A stretch of DNA of 64,000 nucleotides, taken from positions 62,001 to 126,000 of the forward strand of contig CALDSU010000010.1 in the NCBI GenBank assembly GCA_937924525.1, given 5' to 3'. The notes beneath the pieces were generated by a model. It did no database searches. It had not been told where the DNA came from and saw nothing but the letters and a program-made list of their open reading frames with translations. A program made the position numbers and the translations under genes. Shown piece by piece: positions 17,156 to 28,606 of the stretch. The DNA comes from an uncultured Bryobacteraceae bacterium. GTDB taxonomy: Bacteria; Acidobacteriota; Terriglobia; Bryobacterales; Bryobacteraceae. Every line of letters begins with the position of its first letter. The first letter of the stretch is position 1.

Positions 17156-18412
17156 ATGACCTGCCGTGAACGAGTCCTGACCGCCCTTGCCCACCGGGAG
17201 CCCGACCGGATCCCGATGGACTTTGGCAGCACTGCGGTCACGGGTATGCACGTCACCTGCGTGGCCGCCTTGCGCGAGCACTTCGGGCTCGAACGCCGTC
17301 CCGTGAAAGTGCACGAACCCTACCAGATGCTGGGGCTGGTGGAACCTGACCTTCAAGACGCCATGGGGCTGGACGTGGAAGGAGTGTTTCCGCGCAAAAC
17401 GATGTTCGGTTTCCCCAACGAAGGGTGGAAGGAGTGGCGTTTTCACGGAGTCGACGTGCTGGTGCCCCGGGATTTCAACACCACGGTGGACGAAAAAGGC
17501 GACCTGCTGATCTACCCGGAGGGCGACTTGACCGCTCCCCCGAGCGGCCGGATGCCGGCCGGCGGTTTCTTTTTCGATACGATCATCCGGCAGCGGCCCA
17601 TCGACGAAGCGCGGTTGGATCCGGCCGATAATCTGGAGGAATTTCAGCCCGTCAGCGCCGCGGACCTGGCGCACTTCCGGGAAGCGGCCGCGGCGGCGCG
17701 CGCGACCGGGAGGGCGGTCATGGCCAACTTTGGCGGCACCGCGTTCGGCGACATCGCCTTGGTGCCGGCGCCGTTTCTCAAGGACCCGAAAGGGATCCGG
17801 GACGTGGCCGAGTGGTACATGGCGACCCACACGCGGCGGGACTACATCCACCGGATCTTTGACCGCCAGAGCGAGATCGCGCTCCAAAACCTGGAGGCGA
17901 TCTACGGGGCGGTCGGCGACCAGGTGGACGCGGTCTTCCTATGCGGGACCGACTTCGGCACGCAGACTTCCTCGTTCTGCTCGACCGCCACGTTCCGCGA
18001 ACTGTACTTTCCCTACTACCGGCGGCTGAACGACTGGATCCACCAGCACACTCCCTGGAAGACGTTTAAGCACTCCTGCGGAGCGGTGGAGCGCTTTATC
18101 GAGTCGTTTATTGAATGCGGATTCGATATCCTGAACCCAGTGCAGTGTTCGGCGGCGGGCATGGAGCCCGCCCATCTGAAATCGGCCTATGGAGACCGGC
18201 TGGTCTTCTGGGGCGGCGGCGTGGACACGCAGAAAACGCTGCCGTTCGGCACGCCGGCGGACGTGCGGGAAGAGGTGTTGGGGCGGTGCGAAGTGTTCTC
18301 CCGCGGGGGCGGATTTGTGTTTGACTCCATTCATAACGTGCAAGCCGGCACGCCCGTGGTAAACCTGGTGGCGATGATCGACGCGGTGCGCGAATTCAAC
18401 GGAAACAAGTGA
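17156..18412 (+). CDS. URO-D family corrinoid-dependent methyltransferase (component 1)
   Basis: 418 residues starting MTCRERVLTALAHREPDRIP, the standard opening of the uroporphyrinogen decarboxylase/MtaA/methyltransferase superfamily. Later landmarks are FKHSCGAVERFIESFIECGF (HxC zinc-type motif, about residues 304-306) and FDSIHNVQAGTPVVNLVAMI near the C-terminus, where relatives with an HxC...C site have Cys. Known: this superfamily moves methyl groups from methoxy, methylthiol or methanol compounds to a corrinoid protein. The B12-binding gene follows after 8 bases, so this is the best candidate for the substrate-specific methyltransferase. Substrate unknown. Haem synthesis is unlikely, given the length and the corrinoid partner. 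Confidence 0.8.
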   Translation: MTCRERVLTALAHREPDRIPMDFGSTAVTGMHVTCVAALREHFGLERRPVKVHEPYQMLGLVEPDLQDAMGLDVEGVFPRKTMFGFPNEGWKEWRFHGVDVLVPRDFNTTVDEKGDLLIYPEGDLTAPPSGRMPAGGFFFDTIIRQRPIDEARLDPADNLEEFQPVSAADLAHFREAAAAARATGRAVMANFGGTAFGDIALVPAPFLKDPKGIRDVAEWYMATHTRRDYIHRIFDRQSEIALQNLEAIYGAVGDQVDAVFLCGTDFGTQTSSFCSTATFRELYFPYYRRLNDWIHQHTPWKTFKHSCGAVERFIESFIECGFDILNPVQCSAAGMEPAHLKSAYGDRLVFWGGGVDTQKTLPFGTPADVREEVLGRCEVFSRGGGFVFDSIHNVQAGTPVVNLVAMIDAVREFNGNK

Positions 18413-18420
18413 GGCGGTTC

Positions 18421-19071
18421 ATGGCGGACTTACAAAAGCTGTACGAGGCGGTACTCAACGGGGACAACAAGACGGCGGTGGCGGTGACCAAAGAGGCGCT
18501 GGCCGAGAACGCTGATCCGATCGAGTTGATCCAGAAATATATGATTCCGGCAATGGCGGAGGTGGGCAAGCGCTTCGAGTGCGAAGAGTACTTTGTGCCG
18601 GAGTTGCTGCTGTCGGCGCGGGCGATGAAGGGCGCGCTTGAACTGCTGCGTCCGTTGTTGGCGGAAAAAGGCGCCGAGCCCACCGGGCGGGTGGTCATCG
18701 GCACGGTGAAAGGCGACCTGCACGACATCGGCAAGAACCTGGTGGCGTCGCTGCTGGAAGGCGGCGGGTTTGAAGTCACCGACCTCGGCGCCGACGTCCC
18801 GCCCGAGAAATTTGTGGAAGCCGTGCAGCTGCGGAACGCCAACGTCGTCTGCCTGTCGGCGCTATTGACGGTAACCATGCCGGCGATGCGGACCACGATC
18901 GAGGCGTTGAAGAACGCCGGCTTGCGAGATCGGGTGAAAGTGCTCGTCGGCGGCGCCCCGGTGACGCCGCAGTTCGCCAAGGAAATCGGCGCGGACGGCT
19001 ACGGCGAGAACGCCAGCGTGGCCGTCAATCTGGCGCGGGATATGGTGAAGGCGAGTTCGCATGCCTGCTAG
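18421..19071 (+). CDS. Corrinoid (B12-binding) methyltransfer protein
   Basis: 216 residues from the ATG at 18421, which has a GAGGCGG ribosome site. Residues 1-85 are the helical cap domain (MtaC/MtmC/MetH-like: IQKYMIPAMAEVGKRFECEE). Residues ~90-210 are a Rossmann B12 domain with the full lower-ligand signature GDLHDIGKNLV (Asp99, His101, Gly104), LSALLTVTM (SxL) and VGGAPVT (GG). Known: His101 replaces dimethylbenzimidazole as the cobalt ligand and the protein carries a methyl group between two methyltransferases. Its 3' end overlaps the next URO-D gene by 11 bases. In the cytoplasm it should be the hub of the operon. Confidence 0.92.
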   Translation: MADLQKLYEAVLNGDNKTAVAVTKEALAENADPIELIQKYMIPAMAEVGKRFECEEYFVPELLLSARAMKGALELLRPLLAEKGAEPTGRVVIGTVKGDLHDIGKNLVASLLEGGGFEVTDLGADVPPEKFVEAVQLRNANVVCLSALLTVTMPAMRTTIEALKNAGLRDRVKVLVGGAPVTPQFAKEIGADGYGENASVAVNLARDMVKASSHAC

Positions 19072-20116
19072 CGTCTTCCGGCGCATGGCGGCGGAGGGCG
19101 GGCGTATTCCCCTGGCAGTGGACCTGGTGCTGCACGAGCAGCCCGACCCGGAAGCCATTCTGACCGATGGCGAACGCCTGGGGCGCGTCCTGGAAGCGCA
19201 TGCGCTCCGCTACGGCAGTCCGGCGGCGTTTCCCCGCATGGACCTCCGCCTGGAAAAGCGCGATCTGCTCCACCGGCTAGGCATCGGAGGGGAGGAGGCG
19301 GACACGTATCACTTCCTCGCTCCGCCGACCGAGGAGCAACTGGCCCGCGTGCGGGACGGCGCGCCCGCCGCTTTTCTCCCCGCGCACCAGGCGCACTTCG
19401 ATTCGATCCGGTATATCGCGGAGGTTACCTCGCTGTTTCCGGTGGGCATGACGATCGGGCCGTTTTCGCTGGCCACCAAACTGGTGGCCGACCCCATCAC
19501 CCCGGTCGCGCTCGCGGGCCGCGGTTTGGGCCCGGACGACGATGAATCCATCCGCATGTTCGAACGCAGCCTCGAGCTGGCGGAAGCCACCGTCGCCCGC
19601 TCGATCCGGGCGCAGTTGGACGCCGGCGCGCGGGCGGTGATCTTCTGTGAACCGTCCGCCAATGCGGTCTACCTCTCTCCCAGGCAGTTGACCGCCGGTT
19701 CGGACATCCTTAACCGGTACGTGCTGCAGCCGAACCTGCGGCTGCGGCGTCTGTTGGACGAAGCGGGCGCCGCCTGGTTCCTGCATGACTGCGGAGAACT
19801 GACCGATGACATGGTGAGGATTCTGGGGGAGACCCTCCATCCCGCCGTGCTCAGCCTCGGCGCGTCCCGCTGCCTATGGCAGGATGCGGCGCTCGTGCCG
19901 GCGGACGTGGTGTTATATGGCAACCTGCCCACCAAGACGTTCTATTCGGACGCCGCCATGCCCGTGGAGCGGGTCGCGGAACTCGCGGGGCAGTTGGCCA
20001 AAGAGATGAAGGCGCTGGACCGGCCGTTCATCCTGGGGTCGGAATGTGACGTCCTGTACGTTCCGGAGGCGGCCGCCACGATCCGCCGTAAACTGGAAGC
20101 GATGGTGGCGGCTTAA
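19061..20116 (+). CDS. URO-D family methyltransferase (component 2)
   Basis: 351 residues. It overlaps the corrinoid-protein gene by 11 bases. Motifs: VGMTIGPFSLATKLVADPIT (about 128-147), VIFCEPSANAVYLSP, WFLHDCGELTDDM (HxC, about 243-245) and FILGSECDVLYVPEA near the C-terminus, giving the HxC...C zinc site of MtaA/MtbA-like enzymes. Known: such enzymes activate a thiol or other nucleophile with zinc and transfer methyl groups to or from a corrinoid. Inferred: either a second substrate-side enzyme or the enzyme that removes the methyl group from the corrinoid. It is only distantly similar to the other two URO-D proteins of the operon. Confidence 0.78.
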   Translation: MPASVFRRMAAEGGRIPLAVDLVLHEQPDPEAILTDGERLGRVLEAHALRYGSPAAFPRMDLRLEKRDLLHRLGIGGEEADTYHFLAPPTEEQLARVRDGAPAAFLPAHQAHFDSIRYIAEVTSLFPVGMTIGPFSLATKLVADPITPVALAGRGLGPDDDESIRMFERSLELAEATVARSIRAQLDAGARAVIFCEPSANAVYLSPRQLTAGSDILNRYVLQPNLRLRRLLDEAGAAWFLHDCGELTDDMVRILGETLHPAVLSLGASRCLWQDAALVPADVVLYGNLPTKTFYSDAAMPVERVAELAGQLAKEMKALDRPFILGSECDVLYVPEAAATIRRKLEAMVAA

Positions 20117-20305
20117 GAGCCGCCAGCGGAAGGTTGTGCAATTCCATCGGGGACTCGCTGTTTCGCAGCCGCGCGAACAAGCGGGTCTTTGCTGGATTTG
20201 ATTACGTGCCGCGAAAACGAAGCGGCGCGTAGGGGCCCCGGGTGTAAAGTCGCAGCGTCGCGGGAACAAGCCCGCGCATTCATGCGCAACTTGGAAGGAC
20301 TGAGG

Positions 20306-21055
20306 ATGCGGCTGAAGCTGATCGGTTGCGAAGTGATCCTCCGGGAGTTGAGTTTTGTCCTGTCGCGGTCGCCCCACACCATCGACGCGGAATTCCTGCC
20401 CAAGGGCTTGCACGACCTGGGCGGAAGCAAAATGCGGGACCGCTTGCAGGAGGTCGTGGACGCGACCGATCCGCAGCGCTATGAAGCGATTCTGCTGGGG
20501 TATGCGCTCTGCGGCAACGGCGCGCTGGGCCTGCGGGCCCGCGCCATCCCGCTGGTGATTCCCCGCGCCCACGACTGTATCGCATTGCTGATGGGCAGCC
20601 GGCGGCGTTATCAGGAGTACTTTGACGCCAACCCCGGCGTGTACTTCCGCTCCACCGGCTGGCTGGAGCGCGGCCGGGACCTCGATCAAACCACGATGCA
20701 GCAAACCCGCTCCCTCACCGGAGCGGGGTACGCCCTCCAGGAACTGGTCGACAAGTATGGCGAGGAGAACGGTCGCTACCTGTTCGAGCAACTCCACACT
20801 TACCGCCGCCACTACCAGCAACTCACCTACATCGAAACCGGCTTGGAACCGGACGGCAGGTTTGAGGAAGACGCGCGCCGGGAAGCTCAGGAGCACGGCT
20901 GGCGGTTCACCAAGATTCTGGGGGACTTTCAATTGTTCGAGCGGCTGGTGGACGGCGACTGGGATCCGGATCATTTTCTCGTGGTGCCGCCGGGGTACGC
21001 GATTGGCGTCTCGTATGACGAACAGATTGTGCGGCTGGAGGAGGCTCCGGAGTGA
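20306..21055 (+). CDS. DUF1638 family protein in the corrinoid operon
   Basis: 249 residues from the ATG at 20306, preceded by GGAAGGA. A longer upstream frame exists but has no protein character. It opens MRLKLIGCEVILRELSFVLS and has EAILLGYALCGNGALGLRAR, IPRAHDCIALLMGSRRRY and a C-terminal FLVVPPGYAIGVSYDEQIVR. These fit DUF1638, a family found beside corrinoid methyltransferases in methanogens and clostridia and without proven function. Conserved cysteines lie at about residue 8, in ALCGNG and in HDCIALL. The 189-base gap before it holds a CGCGGG/CCCGCG hairpin (20259-20276). Its stop overlaps the next gene's GTG (GTGA). Confidence 0.75.
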   Translation: MRLKLIGCEVILRELSFVLSRSPHTIDAEFLPKGLHDLGGSKMRDRLQEVVDATDPQRYEAILLGYALCGNGALGLRARAIPLVIPRAHDCIALLMGSRRRYQEYFDANPGVYFRSTGWLERGRDLDQTTMQQTRSLTGAGYALQELVDKYGEENGRYLFEQLHTYRRHYQQLTYIETGLEPDGRFEEDARREAQEHGWRFTKILGDFQLFERLVDGDWDPDHFLVVPPGYAIGVSYDEQIVRLEEAPE

Positions 21056-22062
21056 CCGGCCGGGAGCGGGTGGCGGCGCACCTGGCGGGAGAAGCGGTGG
21101 ACCGCCTGCCCGTGATGCCCATCACCATGATGTTCGCCGCCAGCCAGACGGGGGTTTCCTACCGGCGGTACGTTACGGATCACGAGACGCTGGCCCGAGC
21201 GCAGGACCGCACCGCCCGGACCTTCGGGTTCGATCATGTCTCGGTGATTTCCGATCCCGCGCGGGAAGCGCACGACCTGGGCGCCAGGATCGAATGGTTC
21301 GAGCACCAGCCGCCGGCCATCGTCGAAAGCGAGGCGCTCCTGGCCGCCAAGGAGCGGCTGAGCGCGCTGAAGCTGCCGGATCCGCGCGCCGGGCGGATGG
21401 GCGACCGGGTGGCGGGGGTGCGGCGGCTGCGGGAGTTGGCCGGCGCGGAACTCTGCGTTGAAGGTTGGGTGGAGGGCCCCTGCGCGATGGCCGCCGATCT
21501 CCGGGGCCTCAACTCCCTGCTGGTCGACCTGCACGACGATCCGGATTACGTCCGGGAACTGTTCGCGTTCTGCGTAGCGATGGAGATCCGCTTCGCGGAG
21601 GCGCAACTGGAGGCGGGCGCCGACTACATCGGCGTGGGCGACGCCGCAGCCTCGCTGGTCGGGCCCCGGTACTATCGGGAAATGGTGCTGCCGTTCGAGG
21701 AGGAACTGGTCGCGGGCATCCACGCGCGCGGCGGGTGGGTGCGGCTGCATATCTGTGGCAATACCAAGAAAATCGCCGCCGGGATGGGATCGCTGGGCGT
21801 CGCGATCGTTGACCTGGATTCGCTCATCCCTCTGGAACTGGCCCGCGCCGAAATGCCGCCCGCGCAAGTGCTGGCCGGCAATATCGATCCGGTGCGGGTG
21901 CTGCGCGACGGCACGGCGGAACAGGTGCAGGCGGCGCTGGCGGAGTGTCACCGGCAAGCCGGCGCGCGCTGGATCGTAGCCGCAGGCTGCGAGGTGCCGC
22001 CCGGCACTCCCGAGGAAAACCTGCGCGCGATGGCTGCTTACGCGCAGACTCATCTACCCTGA
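21052..22062 (+). CDS. URO-D family methyltransferase (component 3, MtaA/MtbA-like)
   Basis: 336 residues, close to the 340 typical of methylcobamide:thiol methyltransferases. GTG start overlaps the DUF1638 stop. Opening TGRERVAAHLAGEAVDRLPV, mid GPCAMAADLRGLNSLLVDLH, GADYIGVGDAAASLVGPRYY, VRLHICGNTKKIAAGMGSLG (HxC zinc motif, about 236-238) and AAGCEVPPGTPEENLRAMAA (third zinc ligand) near the end. Known: MtaA and MtbA move methyl groups from methyl-corrinoid to coenzyme M. This lineage should lack coenzyme M, so the acceptor (tetrahydrofolate or a thiol) is open. It overlaps the reactivase gene by one base. Confidence 0.82.
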   Translation: MTGRERVAAHLAGEAVDRLPVMPITMMFAASQTGVSYRRYVTDHETLARAQDRTARTFGFDHVSVISDPAREAHDLGARIEWFEHQPPAIVESEALLAAKERLSALKLPDPRAGRMGDRVAGVRRLRELAGAELCVEGWVEGPCAMAADLRGLNSLLVDLHDDPDYVRELFAFCVAMEIRFAEAQLEAGADYIGVGDAAASLVGPRYYREMVLPFEEELVAGIHARGGWVRLHICGNTKKIAAGMGSLGVAIVDLDSLIPLELARAEMPPAQVLAGNIDPVRVLRDGTAEQVQAALAECHRQAGARWIVAAGCEVPPGTPEENLRAMAAYAQTHLP

Positions 22063-23564
22063 TGCCGACCCTCCGTTTGCTTCCTCTCGGGGTGGAGACG
22101 CCGGTCCGGACGGGCTCCTCGCTCAGCGACATCCTCTTTCCCCTGGGAGTGGAGTTTCCTTGCGGCGGGCAGGGCACCTGCGGCGGTTGCCGCGTCCGCC
22201 TGCTCCAGGGCGAGTTGGCGATCTCCCCGGAGATGCGGCAGACGCTGACGGACGAGGAACTGCGCGCCGGGTGGCGGCTGGCTTGCTGCACGAGGGTAAC
22301 CGGCGATTTGACGCTCGAGATCGAACAGTGGACCGCGCACGTGCTCGGCGACGACACGCACTGCGCCTTCGAGCCCCGTCCGGGGTGCGCGGTGGCCTTC
22401 GATGTCGGCACCACGACCTTGGCGGCCCAGTTGGTGGACCTGGAGACCGGCGCGATCCTCGGCGTGCGGACCGCCCTGAACCCGCAGGCCGTGCTGGGCG
22501 CGGACATCATGACCCGTGTGAAGGCGGCGTTGGAACAGAGGGATGGCGCCGGGCGGCTGGCCTCGCTGATTCGCGGCGCGGCGGGCGCGCTCACCGCCGA
22601 TCTGGTCCGCGCCGCGGGACGCGCGGATCTGCGCGCGGTCTGGCTGTGCGGCAACACGGTCATGCACCACCTGTTCGGCGGCGTGGATGTCGAGCCCCTG
22701 TCGCACGTGCCGTTCGAGCCGTCGACGCTGGCCGCCCTGCGCTTCACGCCGCGGGAGCTCGGCTGGACCCTGCCGGAGCAGGTGGAGGTGGTCTTCCTGC
22801 CCTGCATCGGGGGGTTCGTGGGCAGTGACATCCTGGCGGGAATCGCCGCCACCGGCATCGCGGAGCGCGAGGAGCTGGCGGCGCTGCTCGATCTGGGGAC
22901 CAACGGCGAAATCGTGCTGGGCAATCGCCACCGGCTGCTGGCGGCTTCCACCGCGGCGGGCCCGGCGTTTGAAGCCGGCTGCATCTCGATGGGCATGCGC
23001 GCCGCCGAGGGGGCCATCACGCACGTGTATTTCCGCGACGGCGCTTTCGAGTGCCGGGTCTTGGGCGGCGGCGGGCCGCGGGGCATCTGCGGAAGCGGAC
23101 TGGTTTCCGCGGTGGCGCGCGCGCGCCAGACGGGTCTGATCGGGCCGGGCGGCCGCTTCACCAACGGCAAGGAGTGGCTGCTGGCGGATCCCGTCCGGCT
23201 GACGCAGGGCGACATTCGCCAATTGCAGTTGGCCAAGGGCGCCATCGCCGCCGGACTGCGCCTTCTGCTTGAGCAGTGGGGCGCGAGCCTGGAAAGCCTG
23301 CACGCCGTGTATCTGGCCGGCGCCTTCGGAAACTACGTGGACGTGACCGACGCCTGGCGGCTCGGCTTACTCGAGATGGATCCCCAACGCGTCGTTCCCG
23401 CCGGCAACGCGGCGCTCCGCGGCGCCAAGCTCATCGCCTTGAACCCATCGGCGCGCGACCGCTGGCTGCGGGACCTGCCCTCGCGCGTGGTCCACGTGTC
23501 GCTCCACACCGATCCGCGCTTTCAGGACACGTTTGTCGACTGTCTAGCCTTTCCGGAAAGGTGA
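22062..23564 (+). CDS. Corrinoid protein reductive activator (2Fe-2S ferredoxin + ASKHA/DUF4445)
   Basis: 500 residues from the ATG at 22062 (TGATG overlap with the preceding stop). The N-terminus is a 2Fe-2S domain: FPCGGQGTCGGCRV with Cys34, Cys40, Cys43 and LACC (Cys75). The rest is an actin/Hsp70-like ASKHA ATPase: VAFDVGTTTLAAQLVDLETG (phosphate 1), LDLGTNGEIVLGN (phosphate 2) and YLAGAFGNYVDV at the end. Known: RACo/RamA-type activators use ATP to reduce Co(II) back to Co(I) when a corrinoid protein is accidentally oxidised. Its place as the last gene confirms that the operon is a functioning corrinoid methyltransfer system. At 500 residues it is shorter than typical RACo (~630). Confidence 0.9.
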   Translation: MPTLRLLPLGVETPVRTGSSLSDILFPLGVEFPCGGQGTCGGCRVRLLQGELAISPEMRQTLTDEELRAGWRLACCTRVTGDLTLEIEQWTAHVLGDDTHCAFEPRPGCAVAFDVGTTTLAAQLVDLETGAILGVRTALNPQAVLGADIMTRVKAALEQRDGAGRLASLIRGAAGALTADLVRAAGRADLRAVWLCGNTVMHHLFGGVDVEPLSHVPFEPSTLAALRFTPRELGWTLPEQVEVVFLPCIGGFVGSDILAGIAATGIAEREELAALLDLGTNGEIVLGNRHRLLAASTAAGPAFEAGCISMGMRAAEGAITHVYFRDGAFECRVLGGGGPRGICGSGLVSAVARARQTGLIGPGGRFTNGKEWLLADPVRLTQGDIRQLQLAKGAIAAGLRLLLEQWGASLESLHAVYLAGAFGNYVDVTDAWRLGLLEMDPQRVVPAGNAALRGAKLIALNPSARDRWLRDLPSRVVHVSLHTDPRFQDTFVDCLAFPER

Positions 23565-26567: not shown

Positions 26568-27755
26568 TCACATAAAGTTCCGCGTGTGCAGGCCGGAAAG
26601 CTCGGCGGCCTCCTCGTCAGCAAAGCCCAACCGCTGGAGGTGGTTCCGCCGGGCGGCATCCATATCGGCCAGCAGGCCCACGACGCGATGATGCCCCAGG
26701 CGAAGTTGCCCGGGATCCCATCCGCCGGCAGCCACCAGGAGCAGAGCATCGACCACTTCGCGGTTGAGGCCGGCCGTGTGCCGCAGCGTTTCATGGCGCT
26801 GCCGTGCGGCGAGGGCCAGGCGCGGACGGAAACCTGGGTCCTGCTCGAGGTGCCGCCGGAGATGCGCGAGCCCGAATGCGACGTAGCGGGCTTCGTCCTG
26901 CGCCGCCAGGCGCGCCACCGCCTCGGTCACCGGGTCGGGCGCGTGGCGTTCGAGGAACCAGAGCAGGACGAGGAAACTCCCCTCGCCCAGTACGCTCAGC
27001 AGGAACGACGCGATGGCAAACTCCGGTTCCTCCACCAGGCTCTTCAATGACGCCTGCCCGCCCGCCGTCGACCGGCCGAGACGGTCGCGCCGCAGCAGCG
27101 CCCGGCGGGTGAAGACCTCGACGTGCCGCGCTTCGTCGGCGGCCTGTATCGCCAGCAACTGCATTACCTTGCGGAAGTGCGGATGCAGTTGGGCCAGAAA
27201 CCGGCTGGGCACCATCAGGGCGGCGGTTTCGTTCTCCACCAGGTACGTCATGATTTGGACCACCGCATCCTCGACTTCCGCGGGCAGGTCGAAAGCGGCG
27301 TCCCAGGGGATGGCGGTAGCGGGATTCCACTGCGCGGCGGCGGCCTGCGCATAGAGAGCGGCGGCGGTGTCGGCCCAAACCTCGATCTTGCCCGTGAGCC
27401 GGAAATCGAATTCGGGAGAACCGGCTTCTACCGTAGCGCCACGGGCGGCCAGTCCCCAGCGCAAGGGGGCGCGCTCGGCGACCGCGCCCGGCCGACGGGG
27501 ATCAGCGTGGCCGGCGGGTTCAGCGCCCTCCCAGCGCGCCGCCTCCGCCGCGCCGCGGGACACGAGCAGAACGCCGTCCGGGCCGCACCCGAAGCGATGA
27601 CCTTCCGCTCGGCACCACACCTCCAGGTGCAGCGCCAGGTCGGGTGCGCAGCCCATCACCGCCACCGCCTCGCCGGGCGCCGCGGCGCGCAGCGCCCGCT
27701 TCACCAGCAGGTGGCCGCCTTCTTCGAATCCCAGGTCCCCGAGCTCTACCTGCAC
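26568..27755 (-). CDS. TusA-like domain fused to a ferritin-like diiron domain
   Basis: 395 residues, cytoplasmic. Residues 1-55 resemble TusA/SirA sulfur carriers (LGFEEGGHLLVKRALRAAAP ... LEVWCRAEGHRF), but the active Cys-Pro is replaced by FEEGG, so sulfur transfer is unlikely. Residues ~150-310 form a four-helix ferritin-like bundle: VENETAAL (Glu174/176), ADEARH (Glu208, His211), GEGS (Glu258), QDEARY (Glu288, with Tyr291 where His is expected). Known: such bundles hold a diiron centre and activate oxygen. Inferred: an oxygenase or hydroxylase with an altered fourth ligand set. It overlaps the PhnD-like gene by 10 bases and is last in a three-gene operon. Confidence 0.6.
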   Translation of the reverse strand: MQVELGDLGFEEGGHLLVKRALRAAAPGEAVAVMGCAPDLALHLEVWCRAEGHRFGCGPDGVLLVSRGAAEAARWEGAEPAGHADPRRPGAVAERAPLRWGLAARGATVEAGSPEFDFRLTGKIEVWADTAAALYAQAAAAQWNPATAIPWDAAFDLPAEVEDAVVQIMTYLVENETAALMVPSRFLAQLHPHFRKVMQLLAIQAADEARHVEVFTRRALLRRDRLGRSTAGGQASLKSLVEEPEFAIASFLLSVLGEGSFLVLLWFLERHAPDPVTEAVARLAAQDEARYVAFGLAHLRRHLEQDPGFRPRLALAARQRHETLRHTAGLNREVVDALLLVAAGGWDPGQLRLGHHRVVGLLADMDAARRNHLQRLGFADEEAAELSGLHTRNFM

Positions 27756-28606
27756 TGCGCCACGAGCTTTTCGACAAACGCATCGATGGTGCGAAACCGT
27801 GTGACGGCCGCCTCGAGTTGCGCGTAGCCGCTAGTGCGCCCGGGCAGCCACTGTTTGAGGCCCTCGAGGTCGAGCAGGGGGCGCACCAGCGGGTCGGCGT
27901 AACTCATGGCGAACAGCAGGCGCCGGAATTCGGCGACCAGGGCCTGCGGCGCGCCGTCGAGCACCGTGAAATTGCAGTGGTCGTACGGCGGCGTCCGGTC
28001 GAGGATGCGCGTTGCGCCGGAGGGCAGCGTGCCCTCCTGGCTGAAGAGCAGGTGGTTCGCATCCAGGATGCAAGCCGCCTCCGCGTCGCCGCGCAGCAAC
28101 GCCCGCACGGCCACGCGCTCCCCGCCGATGTGGTCGCCGTGCTTGCCGGGCACGAGATCGAACGGCAAGACCTCACAAGCAGTATTCGGTTCGATCCCCA
28201 GGTGCGCCAGACGCCCGAGGGGAATCAGCGTGGCCTGGGGGGAATCATGCGCCCCGACCGCGATCCGCTTGCCCTGCAAGTCCGCCACCTCGTGGATGCC
28301 ACTGTCCGCCCGCACCAGGATGACGGAGGTCAAATCGCGGTCGGAATCGCGCATGGCGATCGCTTCCACCGTCCTGCCCAACGCCGCCGCGATCCGCTGG
28401 GACTGAATCCACGCCAGGGGAGAATTCCAGGCTACATGCAAGTGGCCGCGGAAGTGCGCTTCCACCTGGCGCTCGTAATTGGCGAACAGGACATAATCGA
28501 AGGGAAGGTGATGGAGGGCGAAGTGTCGCTGGAAGCCGTCCCAAATGGTGACCACTTTCGGATCGTACGCGACCGCGCCCAGGATGAGAGTGTTGGTTCC
28601 GTTCAT
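27746..28606 (-). CDS. PhnD-like periplasmic-binding-protein fold without export signal
   Basis: 286 residues. The fold is that of phosphate/phosphonate/transferrin-type binding proteins: ILGAVAYDPKVVTIWDGFQR, VLFANYERQVEAHFRGHLHV (the two domain-1 strands), AWNSPLAWIQSQR, VILVRADSGIHEVADLQGKR, IAVGAHDSPQATLIPLGRLA and an ACILDANHLLFSQEG hinge. Known: PhnD relatives normally bind an oxyanion in the periplasm and pass it to an ABC transporter. Here there is no signal peptide or lipobox, and no permease or ATPase gene nearby. Inferred: a cytosolic ligand-binding or even catalytic protein (as in the THI5-like fold) serving the flanking flavoprotein and diiron protein. Confidence 0.7.
   Translation of the reverse strand: MNGTNTLILGAVAYDPKVVTIWDGFQRHFALHHLPFDYVLFANYERQVEAHFRGHLHVAWNSPLAWIQSQRIAAALGRTVEAIAMRDSDRDLTSVILVRADSGIHEVADLQGKRIAVGAHDSPQATLIPLGRLAHLGIEPNTACEVLPFDLVPGKHGDHIGGERVAVRALLRGDAEAACILDANHLLFSQEGTLPSGATRILDRTPPYDHCNFTVLDGAPQALVAEFRRLLFAMSYADPLVRPLLDLEGLKQWLPGRTSGYAQLEAAVTRFRTIDAFVEKLVAQCR

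Follow-up and report, generated by a model that had tools for sequence, protein, structure and literature searches.

The locus considered here raises the question of where a methyl group comes from, and where it goes, when one corrinoid protein is encoded among three uroporphyrinogen-decarboxylase-type (URO-D) proteins with no folate methyltransferase beside them. It lies in a stretch of 64,000 nucleotides (nt) of an uncultured Bryobacteraceae bacterium (contig CALDSU010000010.1, positions 62,001 to 126,000), hereafter the window. A real six-gene operon occupies positions 17156-23564 of its plus strand and encodes URO-D1, a corrinoid protein (COR), URO-D2, a DUF1638 protein, URO-D3 and a RACo-type reactivase. 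This operon is a complete-looking corrinoid methyl relay. Our best explanation, held with moderate confidence, is that the relay carries methyl groups from an outside compound to a thiol, the product most likely being methionine made without folate. Its parts are as follows (aa, amino acids; E, Pfam E-value).

17156..18412, plus strand: URO-D1, 418 aa (PF01208, E 2e-14), proposed substrate:corrinoid methyltransferase
18421..19071, plus strand: COR, corrinoid (methyl carrier) protein, 216 aa, with the motif GDLHDIGKN (PF02310 and PF02607, E 1.1e-30 and 1.1e-24)
19061..20116, plus strand: URO-D2, 351 aa, with zinc-type residues H242, C244 and C329 (E 1.7e-7), proposed corrinoid:thiol methyltransferase
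20306..21055, plus strand: DUF1638 protein, 249 aa (PF07796, E 8.7e-36), proposed partner in corrinoid reactivation
21052..22062, plus strand: URO-D3, 336 aa, MtaA-like, with an HIC...GC zinc-type site (PF01208, E 7.4e-59), proposed second thiol-side methyltransferase
22062..23564, plus strand: RACo/RamA-type reductive activase, 500 aa (PF14574, PF17651 and PF00111, E 1.4e-63 / 2.3e-42; Fer2, E 6.5e-11)

The six parts named in the original prediction were all recovered, each gene with a Pfam match, and the motifs read as it had claimed: the carrier motif in COR, HDC...SEC in URO-D2, HIC...GC in URO-D3, and in URO-D1 an HSC followed by HN in place of the last Cys. Overlaps, which it described for most of the genes, are seen at COR/URO-D2 (11 nt), DUF1638/URO-D3 (4 nt) and URO-D3/reactivase (1 nt), whereas gaps of 8 and 189 nt separate URO-D1 from COR and URO-D2 from DUF1638. 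The likely starts are 18421 for COR, 20306 for DUF1638 (with a Shine-Dalgarno-like stretch upstream) and 22062 for the reactivase. The Rfam scan at the gathering score found no riboswitch or other family anywhere in the window; a sigma-70 promoter scan found none and was uninformative. URO-D2 was found in four named relatives, the two nearest being Bryobacteraceae/Bryobacterales (URO-D2 60% and 56% identical) and the other two Phycisphaerae metagenome-assembled genomes, and an Acidobacteriota host is therefore likely, as had been supposed for this corrinoid methyltransfer operon.

COR has the helical cap (PF02607), the PF02310 domain and the DxHxxG motif of corrinoid carriers. Its best PDB match is 1y80 (E 1.1e-58), followed by the trimethylamine corrinoid protein 7xcn (5.1e-48), and in NCBIfam it falls near the MtgC/MtbC/pyl_corrinoid models, below their cut-offs. 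The reactivase carries an N-terminal 2Fe-2S domain and ASKHA ATPase domains and matches RACo 3zyy in the PDB (E 3.2e-70); judged by its sequence, it qualifies as an ATP-dependent reductive activase.

The genome that contains the window (G000; 5.52 Mb, 21 contigs, 99.3% complete) holds RACo and DUF1638 as single copies, which are those of the operon. PF02310 gave eight matches there, including COR and MetH, and no second stand-alone methyltransferase-type carrier was found among them, five being judged by size and score only. The match at C5:246606 was rejected as a carrier: it is a 151-aa open reading frame (ORF) beside a 526-aa ORF that we take to be mutase-type. A search with COR itself at E<=1e-20 returned two matches, COR and one more, presumably MetH. 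The original prediction had reported no pterin-binding methyltransferase, which is true of the operon by Pfam and, for PF00809, of the whole genome apart from a 338-aa FolP-like protein and MetH, no MtrH-like protein being found. Since this MetH, which is complete, has its own activation domain, and PF00809 yields only it and the FolP-like protein, the single-copy RACo and DUF1638 are free for COR. In a PF00809 survey of eight genomes (G000, G396, G397, G398, G399, G345, G062 and G211), FolP-like and MetH proteins only were likewise seen in G396, G397 and G398, a FolP-like protein only in G399, and a FolP-like gene in two pieces plus MetH in G211 (84% complete).

The original prediction compared these parts with demethylases of acetogens and methanogens, and thereby overlooked the nearest functional precedent for DUF1638 with a RamA-like activase, the split, corrinoid-dependent methionine synthase known from marine alphaproteobacteria (passages of PMC5764234 and PMC12478193). 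In Phaeobacter inhibens, the split synthase needs DUF1638 and a RamA-like (DUF4445/ferredoxin) protein, both of which are cofit with it and rescued by methionine, and the relevant passages of PMC5764234 propose no specific role for DUF1638, a family named in three papers by our literature search. In Ruegeria pomeroyi, passages of PMC12478193 describe DUF1638 and a RamA-like protein as more abundant on N-osmolytes and one corrinoid protein as common to betaine demethylation and methionine synthesis. Like the split synthase of the former and MtgBCDE of the latter, as these passages present them, the operon has DUF1638 and a RamA-like protein of the ferredoxin-ASKHA type together with a corrinoid protein that stands alone; the cluster of some relatives also includes a stand-alone homocysteine module, and in the window's own genome a stand-alone PF02574 protein is encoded outside the operon. 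In the roseobacter system so described, a pterin-binding module supplies the methyl group and an MttB-type MtgB serves betaine, whereas here there are three URO-Ds, and the own genome, unlike that system, has no stand-alone pterin-binding module (its PF00809 proteins are FolP-sized and FolP-scoring, or MetH). As the separate pterin module, a defining part, is missing, the operon cannot be filed with the roseobacter methionine synthase.

The operon works like the known three-component systems, with a carrier and an activase that have the expected features and with proposed roles for the URO-Ds, and it has parts in common with the roseobacter methionine synthase. With the aromatic O-demethylases and the CdmBCA chloromethane system it has in common a UROD-superfamily first methyltransferase, a corrinoid protein and an activating enzyme, but passages of PMC13222342 assume that the second methyltransferase of those systems, CdmA or its counterpart, methylates tetrahydrofolate (H4folate), and no such protein is present here. 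The acetogen O-demethylases (VdmB/MtvB/OdmB) use an MtrH-like H4folate second methyltransferase, which is missing from the operon and, by PF00809, from the own genome. This bears on a first alternative, a classic methoxyaromatic O-demethylase in which URO-D1 would strip lignin-type methoxy groups and the methyl would pass to tetrahydrofolate through a URO-D acting as an unrecognised H4folate methyltransferase. UROD-superfamily O-demethylases do exist (PMC13222342, in part), URO-D1 lacks the third Cys and O-methyltransferases depart from His-Cys-Cys according to part of PMC10418091, and methylfolate is bound by MetE-type relatives of the fold in listed structures. The absence of an MtrH-like PF00809 protein argues against it, as do the neighbourhoods of COR and URO-D1 described below, and we consider it rather unlikely.

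The acceptor is probably a thiol and, we infer, most likely homocysteine. The acceptor had been called not evident; homocysteine has become a candidate through a homocysteine S-methyltransferase (HcyMT, PF02574) that stands next to COR in relatives. In the locus table (tblastn, E<=1e-10; 62 stretches, namely the window and the fetched loci L031-L034, L081-L091, L130-L139 and L173-L208), COR occurs at 23 fetched loci besides the window, and in seven of these HcyMT adjoins it (identified by Pfam in L082, L085 and L202 and by tblastn in L203-L206). No MtrH-like neighbour was seen there by tblastn with one query, which would miss distant ones, a pattern that speaks against the methoxyaromatic alternative. 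L085 (genome G062) reads URO-D1 (69%)-COR-HcyMT and is ended by the contig end, with PF02574 over the first 83 positions of the HcyMT. There HcyMT occupies the COR-adjacent place held by URO-D2 in the window, and this exchange of places is the chief clue that URO-D2 belongs to the acceptor side. The same genome has DUF1638-URO-D3-RACo in the window's order at L191. L082 (G396) reads RACo-DUF1638-HcyMT-COR, with URO-D2 at a separate locus, L031, beside two URO-Ds and RhaT. In G345, L136 brings URO-D1, HcyMT and URO-D3 together without COR, amid GH59, a six-hairpin glycosidase and GH94, and L084 reads RACo-DUF1638-COR-URO-D2-URO-D1-like, then BtuF-like and FecCD genes, between which lies the one cobalamin riboswitch found by Rfam across eight other loci scanned. 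COR-URO-D3 runs divergently from DUF1638-RACo in L190 (G367), that DUF1638 and RACo being 32% identical to the window's.

Five genomes of family f42 (L202-L206) carry RACo-HcyMT-COR-MttB, for example at L203:3226-9566, a candidate folate-free amine-to-methionine route; in L203 an amino-acid-permease gene precedes the cluster (permease and MttB were Pfam-tested in L203 only). Two genomes of f63 (L207, L208) have RACo-COR-MttB without HcyMT. Proteins that are related to the activation domain of MetH but stand on their own occur in corrinoid methyltransferase clusters at L034:5611-6390 (PF02965), L207:961-1563 and L208:4717-5340 (28-32% similar) and are perhaps an alternative or extra reactivase. 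In L088-L090 (family f28), the neighbours of a COR 59-66% identical to that of the window are a protein with a weak likeness to thymidylate synthase (PF00303, by tests of L088 and L090) and a molybdopterin oxidoreductase with a 4Fe-4S partner (by tests of L088).

We then considered the two zinc-type enzymes. In URO-D2, H242, C244 and C329 are invariant across six orthologues; we take the corresponding MtaA residues to be zinc ligands, and the aligned URO-D residues fit. URO-D3 is identical to MtaA 4ay7 at 79 of 318 aligned residues (24.8%) and lies near MtaA/CmuA in NCBIfam, below the cut-off, while URO-D1 is matched weakly there and URO-D2 and DUF1638 fall in no family. Neither URO-D1 nor URO-D2 has a phmmer match to MtaA or any PDB chain (cut-offs 0.01 and 1). 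Both were modelled as UROD-type barrels (pLDDT 92.5 for URO-D1 and 90.4 for URO-D2). The URO-D1 model matches UROD with Z 24.3 (root-mean-square deviation 3.4, 311 residues aligned) and MtaA with Z 23.1 (3.7, 308), and the best VIA match of URO-D2 is MtaA 4ay7 (Z 27.5; 3.2, 308), tied with human UROD (27.1; 3.1, 307), with MetE barrels at about 20; such fold matches say nothing on the bound ligand. In a tree of 37 URO-D rows, each of the three proteins groups with orthologues of other genomes in a well-supported clade of its own, by which a recent triplication was rejected. Also rejected was URO-D2 as a common Acidobacteriota gene, as two of 297 genomes matched, its own and one at E 9e-4; beyond these, G345 also has URO-D2.

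With MtaABC, the operon has in common the fold or sequence of URO-D2 and URO-D3 with their zinc-type residues, and URO-D2 stands beside the methanol:corrinoid enzyme MtaB in two of the four loci L031-L034 (L033 and L034, both Phycisphaerae). Unlike in MtaABC, URO-D2 is only about 15% identical to MtaA over the aligned model, and coenzyme M use is not implied by the likeness. The MtaB link would suit methylotrophic C1 catabolism, with an MtaB-like enzyme or a URO-D as the entry point for methanol or another simple methyl donor and with URO-D2 in the part of MtaA, using some carrier thiol. With one MtaB query, tblastn found no MtaB in the window, L031, L032 or L084, the rest of the own genome not being searched for it, and we regard this alternative as improbable. 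In L034 (G399), MtaB and URO-D2 stand with COR, a URO-D and one of the MetH-activation-like proteins; no MetH-sized protein was seen in G399 in the PF00809 and PF02574 searches.

The direct transfer of a corrinoid-bound methyl to homocysteine by a zinc TIM barrel recalls, as an idea, the core folate-independent methionine synthases MesA-MesC (passages of PMC7857596 and PMC7005905). Unlike MesA-MesC and MetE, URO-D2 and URO-D3 match PF01208, and no MetE family was detected for them at E<=0.001 in Pfam and NCBIfam.

A closer parallel in gene content is the type 1 mlp cluster, for which passages of PMC10418091 require at least Mlp2 and Mlp3, each >25% identical to soluble coenzyme M methyltransferase, describe a His-Cys-Cys site in the Mlps with the exception of several Mlp1, and report such clusters only from anaerobes. 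The operon could be an mlp-like cluster: as described in these passages, type 1 mlp too has three UROD-fold enzymes, a corrinoid protein and a RACE and no H4folate methyltransferase, and His-Cys-Cys sites are present in URO-D2 and URO-D3. However, only URO-D3 is visibly MtaA-like, URO-D1 and URO-D2 having no detectable MtaA match by phmmer, and URO-D1 has His-Cys-(His-Asn) instead of the third Cys. DUF1638 is an extra part, a word absent from the main text of PMC10418091, and the neighbours tested by Pfam, a part of the total, include no sulfur or selenium gene other than the HcyMTs. We hold this assignment to be unlikely.

On the donor side, an alignment of 21 URO-D1-type proteins shows no variation at H306, C308, H393 or N394, so that a conserved His-Asn, and not simply a loss, stands where the third ligand would be. 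The 16 PF01208 matches in the own genome include HemE, recognised by its score, and a fragment. The proteins at C1, C7, C12 and C11 are of the same HSC...HN type, and URO-D1 therefore has four full-length paralogues in its own genome, the closest 67% identical (C11). This closest paralogue follows a multihaem-cytochrome-like protein after a short gap (L130:5702-7537). On the minus strand of the own genome, a URO-D1-like stretch (L038:8035-8208; 47% over 58 aa) looks like a gene remnant. A common upstream partner of URO-D1 was rejected, the upstream proteins of L130, L085 and L136 being unrelated. A further own-genome URO-D, without HxC (L036:7859-8899), stands in line with a polyprenyl synthetase, an FAD amine oxidoreductase (phytoene-desaturase-like) and a phytoene/squalene synthase.

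Eighteen URO-D1 orthologue loci were fetched outside the window (L085, L130, L136, L173-L184, L186, L188 and L195). In six of them (L173, L175, L178, L181, L183 and L195), a Sugar_tr-type porter lies directly downstream of URO-D1 on the same strand (that of L173 is split over two tblastn pieces and was identified without Pfam), and the predicted ORFs overlap by 4 nt in L175 and L181. Across the 62 stretches, porter matches occur in eight, six being these URO-D1-linked loci. Near other URO-D1 loci stand GH3 (L176), a xylose-isomerase-like barrel (L174) and glycosidases (L136); no sugar gene was seen in L177, L179, L180, L182, L184, L186 or L188, where few neighbours were Pfam-tested. Since some URO-D1 loci have porters or sugar enzymes as neighbours, the substrate may be a methylated carbohydrate or cyclitol; these neighbours argue against the methoxyaromatic alternative. 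The demethylase of an environmental compound that the original prediction proposed gains support from the same neighbours, and we still infer it. Among the matches listed in a literature search, no paper dealt with corrinoid demethylation of O-methyl sugars.

For the preferred relay, three steps can be proposed. URO-D1 would bind a methylated compound that the cell has imported, which may be an O-methylated sugar or cyclitol, and transfer its methyl to the Co(I) of COR. The methyl-Co(III) COR would then dock on a zinc methyltransferase, which may be URO-D2, perhaps URO-D3, or the stand-alone HcyMT encoded elsewhere in the genome, and the methyl would pass to a thiol, with homocysteine the most likely one. 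Homology suggests that RACo (2Fe-2S, ATP), together with DUF1638, would re-reduce Co(II) that arises by accidental oxidation. Corrinoid methyltransfers are reversible in principle, and the relay might instead have a biosynthetic or modifying role, with methionine or methylfolate as the methyl source and a product of the cell as the acceptor. The multihaem-cytochrome-like neighbour of the URO-D1 paralogue in L130, which is not catabolic by Pfam, would fit this reverse flow, but uptake and demethylation are what the porters next to URO-D1 and the association of URO-D2 with MtaB suggest, and we deem reverse flow very improbable.

URO-D1 and its proposed partners also occur together. Among 396 genomes of the phylum, URO-D1 (E<=1e-90) is present in 17, URO-D3 (E<=1e-40) in 10 and both in nine, where 0.43 are expected (hypergeometric 4e-13); without the own genome, the counts are 16, nine and eight. 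The G156 match to URO-D3 (33%) falls outside the URO-D3 clade, and counts are therefore also given without it: 17, nine and eight, with 0.39 expected (1.5e-11). COR at E<=1e-50 is found in 16 of the 17 URO-D1 genomes as against 78 of the 396 overall (a count read by hand from the search table), the lone exception being G282, which is 88% complete. These statistics ignore kinship and rest on cut-offs of our own choosing, the first of several points that weigh against the preferred relay.

The others concern both of its ends. The other 16 of the 23 COR loci showed no adjacent HcyMT, although some stretches end early; among these 16 are L084, L087 and L190 (with DUF1638 and RACo) and L207 and L208 (with MttB). 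The window's operon has no HcyMT either. The own genome has a stand-alone HcyMT (open frame of 306 aa) outside the operon and an HcyMT-MTHFR fusion. In the HcyMT tree, where row G211_306 was disregarded as cut wrongly at a contig edge, the stand-alone HcyMT is not placed with those linked to COR, so that its orthology to them is unsupported. G345 and G396 each have both HcyMT and URO-D2, and URO-D2 therefore need not be a homocysteine enzyme. PF00809 matched one more protein, a stand-alone one and the third of its kind, in G345 and likewise in G062, and folate may thus be the acceptor there. With its complete MetH, the own genome does not lack another route to methionine. The porter is absent from 12 of the 18 URO-D1 loci (<1 kb is left downstream in L085, L174 and L177), and the six porter-bearing ones are confined to two families of the phylum, f42 and f63.

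Downstream of the operon, the window holds two Gfo/Idh/MocA genes, of a kind that seems common in these genomes, and, at 26568-28606, a 395-aa protein without Pfam match and a phosphonate-type periplasmic binding protein.

A more specific proposal, which we advance only tentatively and with considerable doubt, is a folate-free route from O-methyl sugars or cyclitols to methionine in Acidobacteriota and Phycisphaerae, in which URO-D2 would be a new UROD-fold homocysteine methyltransferase and one COR, kept active by DUF1638 and RACo, would serve several scattered URO-D1-type donors. Among the matches listed in the literature search, none treated corrinoid homocysteine demethylation in Acidobacteriota. 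If true, this would be the first corrinoid demethylase for such carbohydrates, and DUF1638, needed for at least one corrinoid methionine synthase (passages of PMC5764234), would be tied to a wider class of carriers. It would also bear on UROD-fold clusters without a folate enzyme, a puzzle also raised for type 1 mlp clusters in part of PMC10418091, and would give Acidobacteriota a direct path from the methyl groups of plant or microbial carbohydrates to methionine.

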